Shown here piece by piece: positions 193 to 10,080 of a stretch of DNA of 11,338 bases (its first letter is position 1; every line of letters starts with the position of its first letter). A model generated the notes under the pieces. That model was not told the origin of the DNA, ran no database searches, and saw only the letters and a list, made by a program, of their open reading frames with translations. The position numbers and the translations under genes are program-made. This DNA is from an uncultured Helicobacteraceae bacterium (lineage in GTDB: Bacteria; Campylobacterota; Campylobacteria; Campylobacterales; Sulfurimonadaceae): NCBI GenBank assembly GCA_903903705.1, contig CAIUZU010000244.1:1-11338 (forward strand), written 5' to 3'.

Positions 193-1473
193 ATGGCTGG
201 ATTTAGCGCACTAAGAGGTCAAGGACATTGGCCGACACTTTTAGCTGCATTTTTGTACTTTGATTTTAGTTTTATGGTTTGGACTATGCTTGGACCACTC
301 TCTAGTGAGATTGCCGACTCTTTGGCGATTGGCGGATTTGTTATTAGTGAATCGCAAAAAGCGACACTTCTCTCTATTCCCGTTTTAGCCGGAGCGATTT
401 TGCGTATAGTTTTAGGATTTGGTGTTGATAAATTTGGTGCTAAAAAAACCGCACTTGCTTCTCAACTTTTAGTTATTATAGTTCTGTTTTATGCCTATTT
501 TAGAGGTGCAAGCATATCTTATGATGAGCTTTTGGTTGTAGCCGTCGGACTTGGTTTTGCAGGCGCTTCATTTGCCGTTGCACTTCCTCAGGCAGGGCAG
601 TGGTATCCGCCAAAACTTCAAGGTACGGTTCTTGGAATTGCCGGAGCAGGAAATATCGGCGTTGTAATCGACTTTCTTTTTGCTCCGAAAATCGCTGAAC
701 TTTGGGGTTGGGAGAGTGTATTTTTAGTCGGTGCGGTTTTGTCGAGTATCATTTTTGTAGCTTACATATTTATGGCAAAAGATGCGCCGCTTGAGGTTTA
801 TACTCCACGACCAAAAAAACTGCGAGATTACGGCAAGCTGCTTCAAGACAGAGATACTTGGTGGTTTAACCTTTTTTATGCGGTAAGTTTTGGAGGGTTT
901 GTAGGGTTTGCAGGATATATGAAAGTTTATCTTATGAACACTTATCAAACTGACATGAGTGCTTTTGGAATTGATATTTTAAACGAGCAAAATGTCAAAG
1001 TCGTAGCAGGTTATTTCGGTGCACTTTGTATTTTTGCAGGAGCTATATTGCGTCCGGTTGGAGGAGCTATAGCAGATAAATTTGGCGGAGTAAAATCGCT
1101 TTATATATTCTTTGGAGTGGTTCTTGCTTTAGTGCTTTTAAGTGCTTCGATAACACTTCCTTTTTACTTTGCGATTGGGGTTTTGTTCTTAATCATGGCA
1201 AATCTAGGCATGGCAAACGGGGCAGTTTTTCAGCTTGTACCGCAAAGATTCGGTAAAGACATAGGTATCATGACAGGACTTATCGGTGCAGGCGGCGGAC
1301 TTGGCGGAACACTGCTTATCAATACTCTTGGATGGAGTAAAGAGGCATTTGGAGGATACTCTGCCGGATTTCTGATCTTTGGCGGACTTGTGTTGCTGGC
1401 GATTGCTGGAATAAGTTTAGTAAAAACAAGATGGAGAACTACATGGGGAGTAAGTGCAGGTGGTAGGATCTAA
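193..1473 (+). CDS. narK: Nitrate/nitrite MFS transporter (NNP family)
   Basis: This 426-residue inner-membrane protein of about 12 helices belongs to the nitrate/nitrite porter branch of the major facilitator superfamily. The NNP signature AGAGNIG (150-156) and its second-half counterpart GAGGGLGG (365-372) are both present. So are the two arginines expected in helices 2 and 8 to bind the anion (R71 in ILRIVLGFGVDKFG, R287 in ILRPVGGAIADKFGG). ANGAVFQLVPQRF (341-353) is also typical of the family. The start is set by AGGAGG 5 nt upstream. The 3' end overlaps the kinase/phosphatase gene by 20 bp, so the two are co-transcribed. Beside assimilatory nitrate and nitrite reductases its likely job is nitrate uptake, although uniport, symport and nitrite export cannot be told apart from sequence. 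A nasA or nrtP label would be equally acceptable. Confidence 0.9.
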   Translation: MAGFSALRGQGHWPTLLAAFLYFDFSFMVWTMLGPLSSEIADSLAIGGFVISESQKATLLSIPVLAGAILRIVLGFGVDKFGAKKTALASQLLVIIVLFYAYFRGASISYDELLVVAVGLGFAGASFAVALPQAGQWYPPKLQGTVLGIAGAGNIGVVIDFLFAPKIAELWGWESVFLVGAVLSSIIFVAYIFMAKDAPLEVYTPRPKKLRDYGKLLQDRDTWWFNLFYAVSFGGFVGFAGYMKVYLMNTYQTDMSAFGIDILNEQNVKVVAGYFGALCIFAGAILRPVGGAIADKFGGVKSLYIFFGVVLALVLLSASITLPFYFAIGVLFLIMANLGMANGAVFQLVPQRFGKDIGIMTGLIGAGGGLGGTLLINTLGWSKEAFGGYSAGFLIFGGLVLLAIAGISLVKTRWRTTWGVSAGGRI

Positions 1474-3082
1474 CATAAAAAGCTCTGCATTTGGACTTGC
1501 CAAAGGCAGAGATATAAAAACGGATGATTTTTACGCTATCACTTCCACTTCAAACCTAACTATCGCAATAGTTTGCGATGGTGTCGGAAGTGCCGAAGCC
1601 GGTGCTGAGGCTGCAAAAAGAGTTACAAACTATCTGCTCAATAACTTTAAGATTCGCCCTCGTGCTTGGAGTATTGAAAAATCAATCGGCACGTTCATAT
1701 CATCCATCAACTCTATTTTATATGAAGAGGGCATGGCAAACTTTGAGAGATCCGAACTTTTAACGACTCTTGCTTTAGTGGTTATAGAGGGCAACAGACT
1801 CTATGGTGCAAATGTTGGTGACAGCAGAGTTTATCTGCACAGAAACGGCTCTTTGATGCAACTCTCATTAGACCATGTGGAGCATGAGGGAAGCCATATT
1901 CTCACCCATGTTCTCGGCGGCGAGAAGAGTGTAAAGCCATTTTATTTTGAAAATATTCTCTCAAAAAATGACATTATACTCCTGTGCAGCGACGGTCTTT
2001 ACAATACGCTCAGTCACGGTCTTATAGAGAAAAATGTCTATCTGGGCGCACACCTGCTTATAAAAAAAGCGAGTCATTCTACGTATGACAATCTGTTAGA
2101 TGATACTACAGCCATTGTGCTTGAGATACTGCAAGATGATGAGAGATCTTCATTAAAGCACCAAAAGATTCCAATTGCAAAAAGCGTACAGGCTGGGCAA
2201 AATATAGACGGCTATAAACTGGAAAAATCTTTCAACGATAACACTTGGTTAGCAAGTAAAAAAACAAAAGAATACATACTAAAGTTCGCTCCAAAAGAGG
2301 CTATAGATGATGAAAACCTGCTTAATCTCTTTGTCAAAGAGGCATGGAATGCAAAGAGGTTAAAATCCCCTTCCTTCCCAAAGGCGGTTATTCCAAAAAA
2401 TAGAAGTTATAGATACTATGTTATGCAAAAAATTGATGGGCAGGATCTCCATGCTTTTTTAAAACAAAAGACATTAACCATCGATGATGCTATCAATCTT
2501 GGTAAAATTTTGCTTCAAATGTCACAATTTTTACTGCGATACGATCTTGTTCACGGTGATATAAAACCCCAAAATATTATGATAGAAAAAAAAGCACAGG
2601 AGATGGAGTTTAAAATTATAGATTTTGGCTCGATCACCGAGATCTTCTCCATAAGTTCAAAGGCAGGAACGCCTAGTTTTCTCTCTCCAGAGAGGTTTTT
2701 AAATGAGGCGATAAGCGAATCAAGCGAAATGTTTTCCCTAGGAGTTACGCTCTATCTCTCATTGACAAAAAAGTACCCTTATGGCGAGATAGAGCCGTTT
2801 CAAAACCCTGTTTTTAAAGAGCCAAAAGCGCCTAGTTTTTATAATGAAAATATACCGCATTGGCTTGACAGTGTTATTTTACGCTCTATCGCCATAGACA
2901 AAGAGAAACGATATGCCCACTACTCAGAGATGGCTTATGAACTTCAAAATCCACAAAAAGTAGCTCCGTTTTTTCTCAAAAACAGATTTTTTATAAAAAG
3001 CCATGGACTCGCTTTTTATAAAGCAGGTTTTATCATTATGACAATCGTTAATGCTATTTTGCTTATTTGGATGAATGCATAA
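1454..3082 (+). CDS. PP2C phosphatase / Ser-Thr protein kinase fusion with C-terminal membrane anchor
   Basis: A 542-residue two-enzyme protein. Residues about 8-228 form a PP2C-type phosphatase, with metal-site motifs CDGVGS (D42), VGDSR (D123), CSDGL (D180) and DDTT (216-219). Residues about 250-500 form a eukaryotic-like kinase. It has the ATP lysine in YILKFAP (K277), catalytic loop HGDIKPQN (D369, N374), IIDFG (D390) and an activation segment GTPSFLSPE. The usual glycine-rich loop is poorly preserved and the HRD arginine is glycine. A single hydrophobic helix (about 522-541) ends the protein, so the enzymes probably face the cytoplasm from the membrane. The GTG start at 1454 overlaps narK by 20 bp. 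A GTG at 1460 is an alternative and is better spaced (9 nt) from GGGGAG at 1445-1450. As recalled, Pseudomonas aeruginosa also keeps such a kinase between its nitrate transporter and nitrite reductase genes. That supports a regulatory role in nitrate assimilation, with targets unknown. Confidence 0.88.
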   Translation: MQVVGSNIKSSAFGLAKGRDIKTDDFYAITSTSNLTIAIVCDGVGSAEAGAEAAKRVTNYLLNNFKIRPRAWSIEKSIGTFISSINSILYEEGMANFERSELLTTLALVVIEGNRLYGANVGDSRVYLHRNGSLMQLSLDHVEHEGSHILTHVLGGEKSVKPFYFENILSKNDIILLCSDGLYNTLSHGLIEKNVYLGAHLLIKKASHSTYDNLLDDTTAIVLEILQDDERSSLKHQKIPIAKSVQAGQNIDGYKLEKSFNDNTWLASKKTKEYILKFAPKEAIDDENLLNLFVKEAWNAKRLKSPSFPKAVIPKNRSYRYYVMQKIDGQDLHAFLKQKTLTIDDAINLGKILLQMSQFLLRYDLVHGDIKPQNIMIEKKAQEMEFKIIDFGSITEIFSISSKAGTPSFLSPERFLNEAISESSEMFSLGVTLYLSLTKKYPYGEIEPFQNPVFKEPKAPSFYNENIPHWLDSVILRSIAIDKEKRYAHYSEMAYELQNPQKVAPFFLKNRFFIKSHGLAFYKAGFIIMTIVNAILLIWMNA

Positions 3083-3127: not shown

Positions 3128-5020
3128 TCAGATATTTAGTTCCGAAAAAACAACTGCCCTGCTTTGCTCTTTTGTATGTAAAATTTTCTCACACATGAGA
3201 GCTAAATTTTCATCTACGCCTTGAACCAACTCACGGATATCTTCAAGTTTTTCGCTCTTTAGAGTGTTTGTAAATCTATCGTATGCGGAGTATGGCTCTT
3301 TGTTTGAGAGTTTGTAGTAAATCTTGCGTCCTATCTCAAAAACTTCAAACTCTTCATTTTTGCCTGTGTTTGTTTTTTCGCTAAAACCGATATCTATGTC
3401 GATTTTCTTCTCTCTTAAATATGCTCCGAGTTTCATCACAAAGCCTATGCAAGAGGGTGTGTAGAGTTTTAAAACTCTCTCGCTAAAATCTTCAAAACTC
3501 TCATTTGAGCGCTTATGTTTTTTATACTCCAGCATAAGAGTTTCTACATAAAAATGAGCATATCTAAGCGGAGCAGACTTTAAAACCGTATAACCCTCAA
3601 CTCCCTCGCTTATGAGTTTTCCGCCTATTGAGATATTTACCGCTCCTTCCATTTCACCGTTTACTTTTGCTTTGCAACCCTCAAAGCCGATATCGCCGAT
3701 TCCATGCAGACCGCATCCTTTAACGCATCCTGACCAGTACATTCGTACTTTACCGTTCTCTATGGGTACATTTTTTTCCAGATACCCAGCCATTTTTATA
3801 GCATCGCTTTTGTTTTCTATCACTCCAAAGGGGCAGTGCTGAGAGCCTGCACATGCTATGAGATGATTGTTATAAAGCGAATCAACGCTTTTGTATTTTT
3901 TAAAAATAGCCTCTTGCAGTGTTTCCTCAACATCTCTCACTCCCATGATATAAAGGTTCTGCTCTATGTCAAACCGTATCTGTGAATCCCCATGTTTTTG
4001 GCTTATATATGCAACTTCCATCAAGTCGCTTCCGCTGAAAATTCCGCTTGGAATTATCATATGAACGCCAAAACCACCGCTTTTTAGCTGCACTTTTCCA
4101 TGATCTGGGTCATTAAAATCAAGTTTTGTCATAGTCTCGCCTGCAGTTGCAAAATCCACTCCTGCATTTTCTCTTATGGCTTGGCTTATCTCACGCATTC
4201 CAACTGCTTCTATGAGAAAAGAGAGTCTGTTTTTGTTTCTGTTGTCTCTAAAACCAAATCTCTTAAAAATGTCCGTAATGGAGTCGTATGCTGTTTCAAC
4301 TTCATTTGGGAGAAGAAAAATATCTGCACTTTTTGCGATTTTGCCAACTTTTCCGCCAAGATAAACGTTGTATCCGTAAACACCGTTCTTTTGTGCCAGA
4401 ACAAAACAGCAGTCATGCCCAAAAACATTGCATCTGTTTGAGATTGAGCCTGTTATAGAAGTGTTAAATTTTCTAGGAAGTGCAGAGATCCACTCATAGT
4501 TGTGTAAAAATTTGCTCTCTAGTTTTTTTAAAATCTCAAAAGACGGCAAAACATTATCAAATCCATCGCTATCAAGCGGATCTGTTACAATATTTCTAAA
4601 GTTGTCCACCCCTGTTTGATATGAAGTAATTCCCACACTGAGCATTTTTTGGATTATTGACGGTATGTCTTTTATATCAAGATAGCGAAACTCTATCTGC
4701 GCTCTTGTCGTGATGTCTATATAATCCTCTCCGAACTCTCTTGCGATTTGCCCTAAAACCAGAGCTTGAATGGAGTTTAGATAGCCACCCGATATGCGAA
4801 CACGCATCATAAATTTTTGTGGAGTTTGTGAATCTTTATCGTAGATCCCAAAACACTTTAAAAAATAATTTTTGTCTTCTTCTTTGATAGAGCTATAACC
4901 GTTTAAGGCATAAAACCCCAGTTGCTCAAATGCTTCTTTTGGAGTTCTAAGTGCCTTTAGCTCTTCTACTTTGTTTAATTTTTTAGCTCTAGCTTCATAA
5001 GCTTTTTGTAACTCTTGCAT
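3128..5020 (-). CDS. nirA: Ferredoxin-type siroheme nitrite reductase, with C-terminal extension
   Basis: A 630-residue member of the nitrite/sulfite reductase family, which reduces nitrite to ammonium with six electrons at a siroheme coupled to a [4Fe-4S] cluster. The cluster cysteines are C390 and C396 (CAGSQHC) and C432 and C436 (GCVKGC). Siroheme-contacting motifs include TTRAQIEFR (104-112), DNFRNI (139-144) and LPRKFN (181-186). The two ferredoxin-like halves typical of the family are present (about 68-130 and about 310-375). There is no signal peptide, so it is cytoplasmic. No NAD(P)H/FAD domain is present, pointing to ferredoxin as donor. The start is supported by GGAG (5027-5030) 6 nt upstream. 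About 90 residues beyond 540 exceed the usual family length and are unexplained. Sulfite reductase is the main alternative, but the neighbouring nitrate reductase and transporter favour nitrite. Confidence 0.88.
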   Translation of the reverse strand: MQELQKAYEARAKKLNKVEELKALRTPKEAFEQLGFYALNGYSSIKEEDKNYFLKCFGIYDKDSQTPQKFMMRVRISGGYLNSIQALVLGQIAREFGEDYIDITTRAQIEFRYLDIKDIPSIIQKMLSVGITSYQTGVDNFRNIVTDPLDSDGFDNVLPSFEILKKLESKFLHNYEWISALPRKFNTSITGSISNRCNVFGHDCCFVLAQKNGVYGYNVYLGGKVGKIAKSADIFLLPNEVETAYDSITDIFKRFGFRDNRNKNRLSFLIEAVGMREISQAIRENAGVDFATAGETMTKLDFNDPDHGKVQLKSGGFGVHMIIPSGIFSGSDLMEVAYISQKHGDSQIRFDIEQNLYIMGVRDVEETLQEAIFKKYKSVDSLYNNHLIACAGSQHCPFGVIENKSDAIKMAGYLEKNVPIENGKVRMYWSGCVKGCGLHGIGDIGFEGCKAKVNGEMEGAVNISIGGKLISEGVEGYTVLKSAPLRYAHFYVETLMLEYKKHKRSNESFEDFSERVLKLYTPSCIGFVMKLGAYLREKKIDIDIGFSEKTNTGKNEEFEVFEIGRKIYYKLSNKEPYSAYDRFTNTLKSEKLEDIRELVQGVDENLALMCEKILHTKEQSRAVVFSELNI

Positions 5021-5036
5021 GATAAGCTCCAGTTGT

Positions 5037-5062
5037 TATATTGTTAAAATTTTAGCAATATA
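5037..5062. promoter_or_regulatory. 26-bp near-perfect palindrome upstream of nirA
   Basis: The arms TATATTG (5037-5043) and CAATATA (5056-5062) flank TTAAAATTTTAG. Of 13 base-pair positions 12 are Watson-Crick and one is T-G, with no loop. It lies in the 68-bp gap between the nitrate reductase stop and the nirA start, on the 5' side of nirA. Its half-site ATTGYTAA resembles the ATTGnTTA dyads upstream of narK and at 7141-7161. It could be an operator over a nirA promoter (a TATAAC lies at 5035-5040 on the - strand) or an intercistronic RNA hairpin. Confidence 0.45.
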
Positions 5063-5088
5063 AACAGAGGAAGCAGGCAGTTTTATGT

Positions 5089-7077
5089 CTATTTTTTATA
5101 CAGCTTTTCTATTCTTACGGTACTATGGTTATAATCAGGCTGAAACGACTCTGGATCTAACAAATCATCTGTCAGATAGTTTATCTCACGATTTGTGATG
5201 GGTATAAATATAGTTTTTTCATTTATCTCTTCGCTTAGGACGGCTTTTGATAAAAGTTCACCTCTTCTTGATATGACCTTTATTTCATCACCGTTTTGTA
5301 TGCCTAGCTTGAGGGCATCTTTTGTATGTATCTGGCAAAAATTTAGCTCTTTATATTTAAGAAGAGATGGAGGCACGGTCGTTTTTGTACCGCTATGCCA
5401 CTGATCTCTTGTTCTGCCCGTGAGGAGTATAAACGGATACTCTTCGTCTCTTTTCTCGCCCAGCTCTTTGTTTTGCACAAAAAACAGGTTTCCTTTTTTA
5501 TCTTTTGTTAAAAAAGTTTTAATCTGTTCTCCCCAAATAAAAGGCTTTTGTGAGAGTTCATCATAAGAAGTTTGGCTTATATCCATGTAAGAGTTTAGTT
5601 TTGTCATCTCTTTATACTCGTCAAATATCTCTTTAGGATTTTTATAGTTAAACTCTTTTTTGTATCCGAGTTCCCATGCCAAAAGCTGAAATATCTCCCA
5701 GTCTGCCTTTACCCCTTGGGCAGTTTTGATCAATTTTTCCTGCTTTGTTATGGTTCTGTCAAGGTTTGTCTGCGTTCCCTCTTTTTCACCCCATGGAGCT
5801 GAGGGAAGCCTAATATGAGCAAATTTTGCACTCTGGGAATCTTCATAAGCGTTTATCTCTACAACCAGCGGTATCTTGCTCATTAACGCCTCTGTTTTGT
5901 TTCTGTTTGGCAGATGGTAGATCGGATCCGTATGAGAGATGAGAAGCACTTCAAGCTCTGCATCCATCATCTGCGTGGCACTTAAACCTGCTTTTGTACT
6001 GACATTTTTACTCTCCCAAAAATTCGAGACTTTTTTAACGCTCTCTTCATCAAAACCAAGATGTACTGCCAGCATTGTTGCAAGTCCGCCGACCTCTCTT
6101 CCGCCCATAGCGTTTGGTTGCCCCGTAAGGCTAAGCGGTCCGTTTCCGCTTTTAAATATTTTTCCGCCCAGCAGATGTGTATTTATAAGTGCGAGATTTT
6201 TATCTACTCCTTGAGAGGATTGGTTTAGCCCCATAGTCCATGCAGTGATGATATTTTTACTATTTTTATAGAGCAAAAAGAACTCATCAAACTGTTCATT
6301 TGTAAGCCCTGTTCTGCTTAACATATCATCACAATCGAGCGAATCAAGTCCGTTTTTTAAAACATCGAAGCCGTTTATATGGCTATTTACAAACTCTTTG
6401 TCATACAACTCTTTATCGATCAGGCGTTTGGAGATAAGGTTGAAAAAATCTATATCGCTTCCTGCGTTTATGCCCAGATATATGTCTGCGCTCTTTGCCG
6501 TATCGGTAAAACGAGGGTCTATTACTACGACTTTGAGTCCATGTTTCTTTGCTTTTTTTATTTTGCCGTGGAAGACTACATGTGATTCTGCCGTGTTTGA
6601 ACCTGCCAGTATTAACAGATCTGCTTTAAAAATATCATCCATTCTTAGAGGAACAAAATCCGCACCGATAGATTTTTTATAAGCAACAACTGCACTTGAC
6701 ATACATGTACGGCTGTTCGTATCAACGTTTGAAGTGCCGATAAAGCCCTTGCCAAGCTTGTTTGCGATGTAATAGTCTTCTGTTAGAAGCTGCCCTGAGA
6801 GATAAAATGCAACCTTCTCTTTTTTGGTCTGTTTTATTTTGCGGGCTATAAAAGAGATACACTCCTCATAAGTTGCAATTCTAAAATCATCTTCAATATT
6901 TTCTCTGATTTGCGGCTTTAGCACTCTTGTTTGCGGGTTAATGCTAAGCAGTCCCGAAGCGCCTTTTAGACAAAGGTTTCCGTTATTTGTCGGATATGAA
7001 GCATCCCCAAACAGTTTTGAATCATCATAAACAACACCGCAACCGACTCCGCAATATCCACATACTGACTTTATCAT
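5089..7077 (-). CDS. narB: Assimilatory nitrate reductase, molybdopterin subunit (NarB/NasC type)
   Basis: A 662-residue molybdopterin-guanine-dinucleotide oxidoreductase that reduces nitrate to nitrite. An N-terminal [4Fe-4S] site is formed by C6, C9, C13 and C36 (CGYCGVGC, then LCLKG). C125 in RTCMSSAV matches the cysteine ligand of molybdenum in Nap/Nas enzymes. TGQPNAMGGREVGG (318-331) and the C-terminal cofactor motif GRTRDQWHSGTKT (554-566) are typical of assimilatory nitrate reductases. There is no twin-arginine signal, so it is cytoplasmic. There is also no C-terminal [2Fe-2S] domain, as in ferredoxin-linked NarB. It is somewhat short for the family. Only a weak TAGG precedes the ATG, 7 nt away, but the CGYCG motif right after it supports this start. 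It is followed by nirA after 68 bp and probably shares a transcript with it. Formate dehydrogenase-like enzymes are related but lack these nitrate reductase motifs. Confidence 0.88.
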   Translation of the reverse strand: MIKSVCGYCGVGCGVVYDDSKLFGDASYPTNNGNLCLKGASGLLSINPQTRVLKPQIRENIEDDFRIATYEECISFIARKIKQTKKEKVAFYLSGQLLTEDYYIANKLGKGFIGTSNVDTNSRTCMSSAVVAYKKSIGADFVPLRMDDIFKADLLILAGSNTAESHVVFHGKIKKAKKHGLKVVVIDPRFTDTAKSADIYLGINAGSDIDFFNLISKRLIDKELYDKEFVNSHINGFDVLKNGLDSLDCDDMLSRTGLTNEQFDEFFLLYKNSKNIITAWTMGLNQSSQGVDKNLALINTHLLGGKIFKSGNGPLSLTGQPNAMGGREVGGLATMLAVHLGFDEESVKKVSNFWESKNVSTKAGLSATQMMDAELEVLLISHTDPIYHLPNRNKTEALMSKIPLVVEINAYEDSQSAKFAHIRLPSAPWGEKEGTQTNLDRTITKQEKLIKTAQGVKADWEIFQLLAWELGYKKEFNYKNPKEIFDEYKEMTKLNSYMDISQTSYDELSQKPFIWGEQIKTFLTKDKKGNLFFVQNKELGEKRDEEYPFILLTGRTRDQWHSGTKTTVPPSLLKYKELNFCQIHTKDALKLGIQNGDEIKVISRRGELLSKAVLSEEINEKTIFIPITNREINYLTDDLLDPESFQPDYNHSTVRIEKLYKK

Positions 7078-7834: not shown

Positions 7835-9468
7835 GTTTTTTACACACTTTGATACACGGTAATGAGGGCGGACTTAAAACCGACGGTCTGACGCCTACTC
7901 AAAAAGTTACCCTTAGAGCCGTAATTATAGGCGTTCTTTACTATGGTTTGTCAGCTTTAGAGGGAATGATGATGAGAGCTCATGCCATAACTCCGCTTCC
8001 TATGCTAAATGACACGCACTACTTTTCCGTTATGACGGTTCACCCGATAGTTGGGATTTTCGGCTCGACTTATCTCATAGTTTTTGGGGCGTTTACATTT
8101 CTTGTTCCCTACTTGATGAAAAAACCGCTCTATAGCATTAAACTTGCAAACGCTACATGGATGCTGATTGCTCTTGGTGCTCTGCTCGCTTGGCTTGGCG
8201 GTTTCTTGTTTCACTATGCTCCGCTTTATACGCTCTACTGGCCGCTTCCGGTTGATTTTAAACAGTTTGATGCACTTGGCGGTCTTGTGTTTATTTCCGG
8301 AATTGCACTCATCATGATAGGGACTTTGGGCTTTATCTACAACATTTTTGCAACTGTTTTTTATACCGAAGAGGGTCATGAAAAAAGACCGTTTAAACCG
8401 CTTCTTCTCTCTGCTTTGGGGATTGACGGTGTATTGAATATCTGGTACAAAATGACGGGTCGTGAGCCATACTCAAAAGAGCCTGCGGTTTCGCTTCCTG
8501 TTGTAGCTATTTTTCGCGGAACGATTGACACTTTTCTTGATGCGCTTGTGATTTTGACATGCGGAATTTTAATCTTAGTATATATTGTCAGTGACCTCTC
8601 AGGCGCTCCTATGGACTACACAGCGGTAAATGCACTGCTTTACAAAAACTTTTTCTGGTGGGGGCTTGACCTCATTGCAGACGGTTTAGTGCTTATTTAT
8701 ATAGCAGGATCTTGGTATCTTTTAGCAATGCTTATCACGGGTAAAAAACTCTTTATGCAAAATATCGCAAGAGCGGCACTTTTACTTGAGCTGATCGTTT
8801 CATGGGCTGTTTGGTCGCATCACTTATTGGCAGATCAAGGTCAGTACAATATGATGAAACTTGTAAGCGGCGAGATGGTAACGGCATTTGAGCTTGTTAC
8901 ACAGGGAATAGCTATTTTCATTACGCTTGTAACTTTATGGAGTGCAAGACCTCTGAAAATGACAAATGAGCTGAAGTTTTTACTTGGCGGTATTTTAGGT
9001 TTTATGCTTGCCGTTCCTGCGGGAATCATTCAAGCGGATATGGGACTAAACAGAATTTTGCACAACACTCAATGGGTTGCAGGACCGCACTTCCATGTCG
9101 CAATCCTTGTCGGACTTACGATGACGCTTTATAGTGCCATCTATATACTTTGGCCGACACTTACAAACAACGTTAAGCTTTACAGTCAAAAAATGGCAAC
9201 GTATCACTTTTGGGCGCATTTAGTCGGCGGTATAGGAATGGGTGCATTTATGGGAATGGCTGCGATGGACGGGATGTTAAGACGAACACTCTATCTTGAG
9301 GGCGAATACCAAACATATATGATACTGGCAGGTATTTGCGGTCTTTTGCTTCTCTCTGCATGGGTCGTGTTTTTGCTAAATGTTGTACTTAGTATCGGTG
9401 TAAAAGGGCTTATCGGTGTTTTTACAAAGTCAAAACTTCAAACTAAAGATTTAGTTCCACAAGCGTAA
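7831..9468 (+). CDS. Heme-copper superfamily subunit I, probable nitric oxide reductase (gNOR-like)
   Basis: A 545-residue, about 12-helix catalytic subunit. The low-spin heme ligands are H71 (TVHPIVG, helix II) and H422 (helix X). The high-spin heme ligand is H420 (PHFH). Helix VII keeps two active-site metal histidines, H330 and H331 (WSHHLLADQ). Helix VI does not carry His-Pro-Glu-x-Tyr. The aligned stretch is WWGLDLIADG (276-285), giving D280 and D284 but neither the third histidine nor the cross-linked tyrosine. Oxygen reductases need both, so nitric oxide reduction (2 NO to N2O) is favoured. As recalled, the gNOR group of Campylobacterota has an aspartate in place of one active-site histidine, which fits. 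GGGGAAG precedes the ATG, which overlaps the subunit II stop. The product probably handles NO formed during nitrate or nitrite metabolism. A divergent oxygen reductase is the alternative. Confidence 0.8.
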   Translation: MSFLHTLIHGNEGGLKTDGLTPTQKVTLRAVIIGVLYYGLSALEGMMMRAHAITPLPMLNDTHYFSVMTVHPIVGIFGSTYLIVFGAFTFLVPYLMKKPLYSIKLANATWMLIALGALLAWLGGFLFHYAPLYTLYWPLPVDFKQFDALGGLVFISGIALIMIGTLGFIYNIFATVFYTEEGHEKRPFKPLLLSALGIDGVLNIWYKMTGREPYSKEPAVSLPVVAIFRGTIDTFLDALVILTCGILILVYIVSDLSGAPMDYTAVNALLYKNFFWWGLDLIADGLVLIYIAGSWYLLAMLITGKKLFMQNIARAALLLELIVSWAVWSHHLLADQGQYNMMKLVSGEMVTAFELVTQGIAIFITLVTLWSARPLKMTNELKFLLGGILGFMLAVPAGIIQADMGLNRILHNTQWVAGPHFHVAILVGLTMTLYSAIYILWPTLTNNVKLYSQKMATYHFWAHLVGGIGMGAFMGMAAMDGMLRRTLYLEGEYQTYMILAGICGLLLLSAWVVFLLNVVLSIGVKGLIGVFTKSKLQTKDLVPQA

Positions 9469-9483
9469 AAGAAGGAATTTGTT

Positions 9484-10080
9484 ATGGTAAACATAGAAAA
9501 AGTATCAAATCAGATTTTGAATGATGGGCTATACAACACGCTTCTCTTTGAGATAAAAGAGAAGCTGTCTGTGCAGGATGTTACGCCCATGATGACTGAG
9601 ACTCTTTTACGAGCAGAGCCATCACTTATACAAGAGTACAAAGAGATAAACAGACAAAGCGAACTCTCAAGTATTCAGGTAAAAGAGCTTAGTATTCATA
9701 AAAGCGATACGTACAAGATCACAAAAATAAAAAAAGAGATAAATCAAAATATTCAGGTTTTAAAAAATCTTGAAAACTTTGAAACAGACTCCAAAAACAG
9801 TGCCTATTCCATTTGGATTGGCAGTGTCGGGGTTATGGTAATTTTTATGGCTCATAATGTAATAGCTCTCTTTAGTGAACTGTATGCTACCCATAGCTTG
9901 CTTGTTTACGGCTCATTTGCACTGATTTTGTTTTTTACGTATGTTGGCTATGTAAAGATTAAAAAGAACCATGACTCTCAGCATGAGATCTTTAAAAAAG
10001 TATACGTAACAACTCAAAAAATGATAGAAAATGGACTTAAAGCTTCAAATTTTACGTATGATGAAGTATATGAAAAATAA
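9484..10080 (+). CDS. Two-helix membrane protein of unknown function, third gene of the gNOR-like operon
   Basis: I do not recognise this 198-residue protein. The first 105 residues are hydrophilic and rich in Lys, Glu and Ile, probably helical. The segment around 60-100 (EINRQ to LKNLENFE) has a spacing that suggests a coiled coil. Two membrane helices follow (about 109-129 and 139-159), then a charged tail of about 40 residues, so both ends probably lie in the cytoplasm. No cysteine is present and no heme or metal motif is evident. It starts 15 bp after subunit I with AAGGA 7 nt before the ATG, so it is very likely in the same operon. An assembly or anchoring role for the reductase is possible but rests only on position. 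The stop lies 4 bp from the end of the convergent GGDEF-EAL gene. Confidence 0.7.
   Translation: MVNIEKVSNQILNDGLYNTLLFEIKEKLSVQDVTPMMTETLLRAEPSLIQEYKEINRQSELSSIQVKELSIHKSDTYKITKIKKEINQNIQVLKNLENFETDSKNSAYSIWIGSVGVMVIFMAHNVIALFSELYATHSLLVYGSFALILFFTYVGYVKIKKNHDSQHEIFKKVYVTTQKMIENGLKASNFTYDEVYEK

Follow-up and report, generated by a model that had tools for sequence, protein, structure and literature searches.

A predicted gNOR-type nitric oxide reductase with two conserved active-site aspartates and an associated third gene in an uncultured Sulfurimonadaceae bacterium

What reaction is served by a heme-copper subunit I in which aspartate takes the place of the metal-binding histidine of helix VI? 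The question was raised by a contig of 11,338 nucleotides (CAIUZU010000244.1; the window, meaning the whole stretch of DNA that was analyzed) from an uncultured Helicobacteraceae bacterium, whose draft genome comprises 1.76 Mb in 429 contigs and is 79% complete. A sequence-only reading of the window had noticed that the subunit keeps both heme sites and the histidine pair of helix VII, and had suggested an NO reductase of the gNOR group. Sequence comparison strongly suggests that the window encodes gNOR, a two-subunit NO reductase of the heme-copper superfamily, plus a third gene, the NO reductase activity being predicted. The family is a known one, of which the window protein is an ordinary representative, and gNOR is already listed for its genus; the nearest named relative for subunit I is Sulfurimonas sp. 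RIFOXYB12 (99% identity).

Gene arrangement and active-site residues of subunit I

The genes of the window were named after their best matches, all of which except the GGDEF domain were under the NCBIfam cut-offs (Table 1). For the molybdopterin oxidoreductase, the best models were formate dehydrogenase alpha and then assimilatory nitrate reductase NasC. Subunits II and I overlap at the stop codon of the former and the start of the latter, and the third gene begins 16 bases past the end of subunit I, so that the arrangement of the three genes is operon-like.

Table 1. Features of the predicted gNOR locus and of neighbouring genes in the window.
Feature	Positions	Strand	Remarks
PP2C phosphatase + Ser/Thr kinase fusion	1454-3082		Between the NarK-like and nitrite reductase-like genes
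NarK-like MFS transporter gene	In the window		Best match below NCBIfam cut-off
Nitrite/sulfite reductase-like and molybdopterin oxidoreductase genes	3128-7077	-	Best matches below NCBIfam cut-offs
Predicted gNOR subunit II, 197 aa	7241-7834	+	Profile match to CuA domains, best 1.1e-7
Predicted gNOR subunit I, catalytic heme-copper subunit, 545 aa	7831-9468	+	Pfam COX1, 1.8e-48
H71, low-spin heme ligand	8041-8043	+	His in 81/81 gNOR rows and 57/57 others
D280, position of helix VI metal-ligand His	8668-8670	+	GAC; Asp in 81/81 gNOR rows, His in 57/57 others
D284, position of cross-linked Tyr/cNOR Glu211	8680-8682	+	GAC; Asp in 81/81 gNOR rows
H330-H331, helix VII metal ligands	8818-8823	+	81/81; aligned with the HH pair of 57/57 others
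H420 and H422, proximal ligands of the two hemes	9088-9096	+	Invariant in 81/81
Third gene, 198 aa, unannotated	9484-10080	+	Recurs downstream of gNOR
GGDEF-EAL protein gene	After the third gene	Opposite strand	GGDEF domain above NCBIfam cut-off

From 147 relatives, 80 loci (64–99% identity) were kept, giving 81 rows together with the window. H71, D280, D284, H330, H331, H420 and H422 were identical in all of them. The five histidines named in the sequence-only reading were found at their codons when these were checked (H420 at 9088–9090 and H422 at 9094–9096). The span it had given for the feature, 8644–9110 (residues 272–427), contains the other four histidines and both aspartates; H71, at 8041–8043, lies outside it.

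Helix VI of subunit I reads WWGLDLIADG, and the reported absence of a His-Pro-Glu-x-Tyr motif was borne out by comparison with 57 other heme-copper proteins. This set, which includes near-copies, was obtained from 83 hits after removal of 15 fragments shorter than 440 aa, one non-heme-copper frame and 10 gNORs. D280 falls into the column that is occupied by histidine in 57/57 of these proteins. The role of the second aspartate had been called unclear; the alignment now assigns D284 a position in the superfamily, since its column contains Tyr in the A- and B-family rows and Glu in the cNOR and qNOR rows, where it corresponds to Glu211 of cNOR. Of the remaining rows, one sNOR-like protein has Asn, and the C and C-like proteins have Ala or Gly. 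As read from this alignment, both the helix VI metal histidine and the Tyr/Glu are replaced in gNOR, each by Asp.

A helix VI histidine hidden by misalignment was looked for, and none was recovered in the 57-protein comparison. Misalignment was rejected because the motif region is free of gaps in the alignment of 16 gNORs with these proteins. HMMER local alignments of some PDB hits placed a gap at the helix VI motif. An assembly or sequencing error, or chance, as the origin of D280 and D284 was also rejected, given their conservation in 81/81 rows. One gNOR subunit I copy, on contig C60 of genome G096, carries a single in-frame TAA. The loop before H420 was found to be one residue longer in gNOR than in other heme-copper proteins, the distance from position 411 to 420 being 9 in 16/16 gNORs and 8 in 57/57 others. 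The spacing between the HNxQW and HxH motifs is four residues in 81/81 gNORs.

Two histidines and a carboxylate form a common non-heme iron site, and by analogy the set H330/H331/D280 appears to resemble the 2-His-1-carboxylate sites of non-heme iron enzymes. The sequence-only reading had proposed just such a site of two histidines with one aspartate. Its exchange of histidine for aspartate stands; as D284 also occupies the Tyr/Glu211 position, the site may hold two aspartates beside the two histidines (2-His/2-Asp), one more than had been proposed, and both D280 and D284 would then be predicted to face the active-site metal. In the Pseudomonas aeruginosa cNOR structure Glu211 ligates FeB, and in qNORs the equivalent Glu has been found both bound and unbound (PMC10256718).

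Subunit II, superfamily placement and known NO reductases

Subunit II consists of two hydrophobic N-terminal segments, which by hydropathy suggest two membrane segments, and a cupredoxin-like domain. Its match to CuA domains (best 1.1e-7) was obtained with a profile built from 20 sequences. The two CuA histidine positions are occupied by Y123 and G170, each in 81/81 rows, and the two cysteine positions by S162 (79 Ser, 2 Thr) and S166 (71 Ser, 10 Ala). The Met and Glu of the CuA site are kept as M173 (80/81 rows) and E164 (81/81). Since no cysteine was found in the second loop and no histidine in the first loop in any of the 81 rows, the CuA site is, from its ligand positions, lost throughout the set and not in the window alone. 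This loss is a refinement that the sequence-only reading did not contain.

A subunit II homologue adjoins gNOR in 80/80 loci, four of which are cut by the contig end. The window thus has the two subunits expected of gNOR, with a cupredoxin subunit II that carries no heme c, and no heme c gene was found beside gNOR in the window. With CuA lost and no heme c subunit to replace it, quinol is favoured as the predicted, most likely electron donor on the basis of these ligand positions. This prediction is compatible with the published label of the Methylomirabilis gNOR, encoded by norGH, as quinone-oxidizing and non-electrogenic (PMC8906906). A cytochrome c donor is possible, because an ORF with a CxxCH motif was present somewhere in the examined stretch of 15/80 loci.

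A quick maximum-likelihood tree was built from 63 rows, and in it the 16 gNOR rows formed one clade (SH-aLRT 100). For this tree 10 near-duplicates had been removed by hand and family labels were set from motifs; the set was without named gNOR, eNOR or bNOR references, and the tool warned of long branches meeting (the sNOR-like row has a branch length of 2.7). The gNOR clade lies on the A+B side, away from cNOR and qNOR, and inside none of the A, B and C families. The grouping with oxygen reductases that would have spoken against an NO reductase was therefore not obtained in the tree with its motif-labelled references. The PDB searches gave best matches of different kinds, mostly ba3-type chains for the single subunit I sequence, and mitochondrial A-type and cbb3 chains for the gNOR profile. 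gNOR has been counted as a B-family relative (PMC11388526).

The position on the A+B side, the nearest matches of subunit II, which are CuA domains of oxygen reductases, and the names of the listed relatives, which are called cytochrome c oxidase where the source names them, would all suit an unusual oxygen reductase working with neither the third histidine nor the cross-linked tyrosine. Against this, the positions of the metal histidine and the cross-linked tyrosine are Asp in 81/81 rows. The A- and B-family oxygen reductases have three metal histidines and the tyrosine, where gNOR has D280 and D284. The ba3-type enzymes of the B family share with gNOR a cupredoxin subunit II and the HNT motif of helix X, whereas their helix VI His, Tyr and CuA are all absent from gNOR. 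For the C family (cbb3), neither the helix VI histidine nor a common clade with CcoN was found.

The tree also bears on a heme-copper relative with another substrate, or with NO dismutase-like activity. To our knowledge, an active site of two His and two Asp is unlike those of the characterized heme-copper members, so the substrate cannot be read with certainty from this unusual set. Putative NO dismutases are relatives of qNOR, and gNOR does not group with qNOR in the tree; the denitrification context described below also argues against this reading, to which we give hardly any weight.

Several other heme-copper proteins were observed in the course of this comparison. L106 and L107, of about 460 aa, come from two gNOR-bearing Aquificota genomes; their helix VI reads IHDLVG and their helix VII GVHHFLWS, with neither Tyr nor an acid in the D284 column, and they fall outside the C clade. 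L125 is a C-like protein (AHNVLG, GAHHLMG) next to which another heme-copper-like ORF (162 aa) was seen; the subunit may have been split or duplicated.

Both substitutions are already in print. Tyr is stated to be replaced by Glu, Gln, Asp or Asn in NORs, and one metal-binding His by Asp in certain NOR types, with reference to Hemp & Gennis 2008 and Sievert et al. 2008 (PMC3475470); the passage on His to Asp does not name gNOR. Table A4 of PMC8756737 lists gNOR with the active-site residue D for Sulfurimonas, Sulfurovum and Persephonella. The window and its relatives carry both marks, namely D284 at the Tyr/Glu position and D280 in place of the histidine that all 57 other proteins retain. The assignment to the gNOR group in the sequence-only reading was supported by this published mark and the matching taxa, by the separate clade and by the denitrifier genome context.

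The gNOR (NorGH) of the accessible parts of these papers resembles the window in its Asp at the Tyr/Glu position, its genera, its two subunits and its cupredoxin subunit II, and no active-site difference was found there. Seen here in addition to those parts were the third gene, the insertion of one residue into the loop preceding H420, and members from Bacteroidota and Woeseiaceae. The cNOR (NorBC) proteins, as exemplified by NorB of the window's own genome, are like gNOR in that a carboxylate follows the helix VI ligand at a distance of four residues (HLWVE in cNOR versus DLIAD in gNOR) and in their two helix VII histidines. They differ in their retained helix VI His, their heme c subunit and their separate clade, and the HxxxE of cNOR and qNOR is DxxxD in gNOR. 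sNOR and bNOR (CuA NOR) are, like gNOR, cupredoxin-type NORs with the tyrosine replaced, by Asn according to PMC8756737 and by Asp in gNOR; the sNOR-like row L122, named from its motif, keeps the helix VI His, unlike gNOR.

cNOR, qNOR, bNOR and eNOR are described as biochemically characterized and gNOR as proposed (PMC11388526), and gNOR has been reported in Methylomirabilis (PMC6094997). No activity, metal content or structure of gNOR was found in print. In the parts of the sources available, statements on its energy conservation disagree: gNor is predicted to translocate protons in PMC6349771, conserved proton channels are ascribed jointly to sNOR, gNOR and nNOR in PMC11388526, and gNOR is listed without a proton channel in PMC8756737, beside the non-electrogenic label of PMC8906906.

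Genome context and neighbourhoods of gNOR

The genome context was surveyed in 249 genomes of the window's phylum, 27 with gNOR (the window's own included) and 222 without. NirS-class genes were defined as Cytochrom_D1 matches of at least 150 bits, of NirS or NirN class, because this Pfam model cannot separate NirS from NirN; it matched in 2/14 control genomes, one of them over the cut-off. By this definition 37 genomes had a NirS-class gene. Such genes were present in 24/27 gNOR genomes versus 13/222 others (Fisher p 5e-21, inflated by kinship), and by genus in 11/12 with gNOR versus 4/43 without (p 1.3e-7, likewise inflated by kinship). Thirteen of the 37 NirS-class genomes were without gNOR. 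NosZ was found in 20/27 gNOR genomes and not found in 7/27; it was present in 11/13 of the NirS-class genomes without gNOR, and 0/14 control genomes matched. The genome context of gNOR is that of denitrifiers, which fits NO reduction.

The co-occurrence with NirS-class genes across genomes, and the presence of at least one further PF00115 match in 26/27 gNOR genomes, also speak against the unusual oxygen reductase considered above. The exception is genome G131, in which no other oxygen reductase was found, so that gNOR would be its only one. In view of this and of the substituted ligands, we regard an oxygen reductase as very unlikely.

cNOR NorB was detected in 36 of the 249 genomes, among them 23/27 gNOR genomes including the window's own. 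Contig C397 of that genome (L001) carries a canonical cNOR operon (NorC, NorB) adjoining the start of a NirS-class gene; the window genome therefore holds two NOR types. Among the 37 NirS-class genomes, cNOR was missing only in G131, which has gNOR. This genome is rated 99% complete and has a NirS-class gene (a frame of 597 aa with a Cytochrom_D1 domain), NosZ and a single PF00115 match overall, which is gNOR itself (3.3e-49; WWGLDLVADG and WSHHL), followed by a 217-aa frame that contains the third gene. Neither cNOR nor a match to cytochrome bd was found in G131.

A simple role in denitrification is spoken against by three gNOR genomes, G125, G146 and G229, which carry a gNOR with WWGLDLVADG and have neither a NirS-class gene nor cNOR; NosZ was found only in G229, and G125 has cytochrome bd. 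NirK as the NO source in gNOR genomes without NirS was considered and rejected, as no match exceeded the cut-off in the five genomes queried, these three included (best match 50.7 bits, in G125, versus a cut-off of 296.3).

These distributions raise the question of role. In the 23 genomes with cNOR, gNOR would be redundant, and it may instead serve to detoxify NO, with a link to the respiratory chain, and not be the main NOR of denitrification. This proposal concerns role and not reaction, and is compatible with gNOR as an NO reductase. The three genomes without NirS-class genes, cNOR and NirK above the cut-off, two of which are also without NosZ, are in line with it, as is an Rrf2-family regulator gene directly before gNOR in the Bacteroidota locus L081. 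The strong overlap of gNOR with NirS-class genes argues against it, and G131, with no NOR found besides gNOR, points to use in denitrification as well. A detoxifying role is thus possible, leaning towards doubtful. Regulation by NO through the L081 regulator was itself rejected, its NsrR match being far below the NCBIfam cut-off.

Close to gNOR itself, a NirS-like (about 29% identity), NirJ, NirDLGH or NorB gene was found in the examined stretch of 10/80 loci. At E 1e-20, relatives of the window's molybdopterin or nitrite reductase-like gene were found in 17/80 loci, with an identity of at least 50% in 10 of these. The PP2C phosphatase-kinase fusion family recurs near gNOR in 19 loci, the window included. 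gNOR was also observed in MAGs of Bacteroidota and Woeseiaceae (L039, L045, L070, L080, L081 and L071), beyond the taxa of the PMC8756737 table.

The third gene and the proposed mechanism

The product of the third gene has two hydrophobic segments in its second half. Homologues were found downstream of gNOR in 65/80 loci; 7 of the 15 loci without one end within 700 bases, which gives 65/73 assessable loci. The eight assessable loci without it comprise four Campylobacterota, three Bacteroidota and one Woeseiaceae. By genome, the third gene was present in 24/27 gNOR genomes (missing in G053, G125 and G225). Among the 222 genomes without gNOR, there was one hit of 20 bits with six stops, in G207, which is spurious. 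When mapped onto a subunit I tree made with FastTree, its presence and absence in the 74 rows whose state is known require a single change.

No NCBIfam match to the third gene was found down to 0.001, and for 20 members Pfam gave nothing better than E 0.003. Among the 120 homologues listed of 1474, none had a Pfam domain, and those with a name were called hypothetical protein with one exception, an amino acid permease. The third gene probably encodes an accessory subunit or an assembly factor. Judged by titles and the starts of abstracts, no paper found on gNOR or norGH treats the third gene, and its tie to gNOR is possibly new. In 34 loci a further family, represented by positions 4226–5107 of L069 and its relatives, comes after the third gene, about 2.3 kb downstream from where gNOR starts.

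A mechanism can be proposed from the alignment. The non-heme metal would be iron (FeB), bound by H330, H331 and D280, with D284 serving either as a fourth ligand or as a second-sphere proton relay. Electrons would be delivered from quinol via the low-spin heme, and two NO would be reduced to N2O at the heme and FeB. The third protein would act as the accessory subunit or assembly factor.

More tentatively, gNOR may be a three-component system, in which a 2-His/2-Asp heme-FeB subunit and a cupredoxin subunit without CuA are joined by a dedicated membrane protein (9484–10080), accessory or inserting the metal site, whose gene was gained or lost once. In the same proposal, gNOR would be the sole heme-copper enzyme of at least one Campylobacterota genome, G131, and alone close the NO-to-N2O step of complete denitrification there. 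We put this combined picture forward as plausible and somewhat less than probable.

So far, gNOR counts among the NO reductases that are proposed, not biochemically characterized. Two points deserve further work, namely the third gene and G131: the conservation of the former, and the search of the latter that gave gNOR as its one heme-copper enzyme and no match to cytochrome bd, make gNOR directly testable. If the function proposed here is true, an iron site of two His and two Asp can serve the heme-copper scaffold, and the relatives that are named cytochrome c oxidase in databases would be unrecognized producers of N2O.
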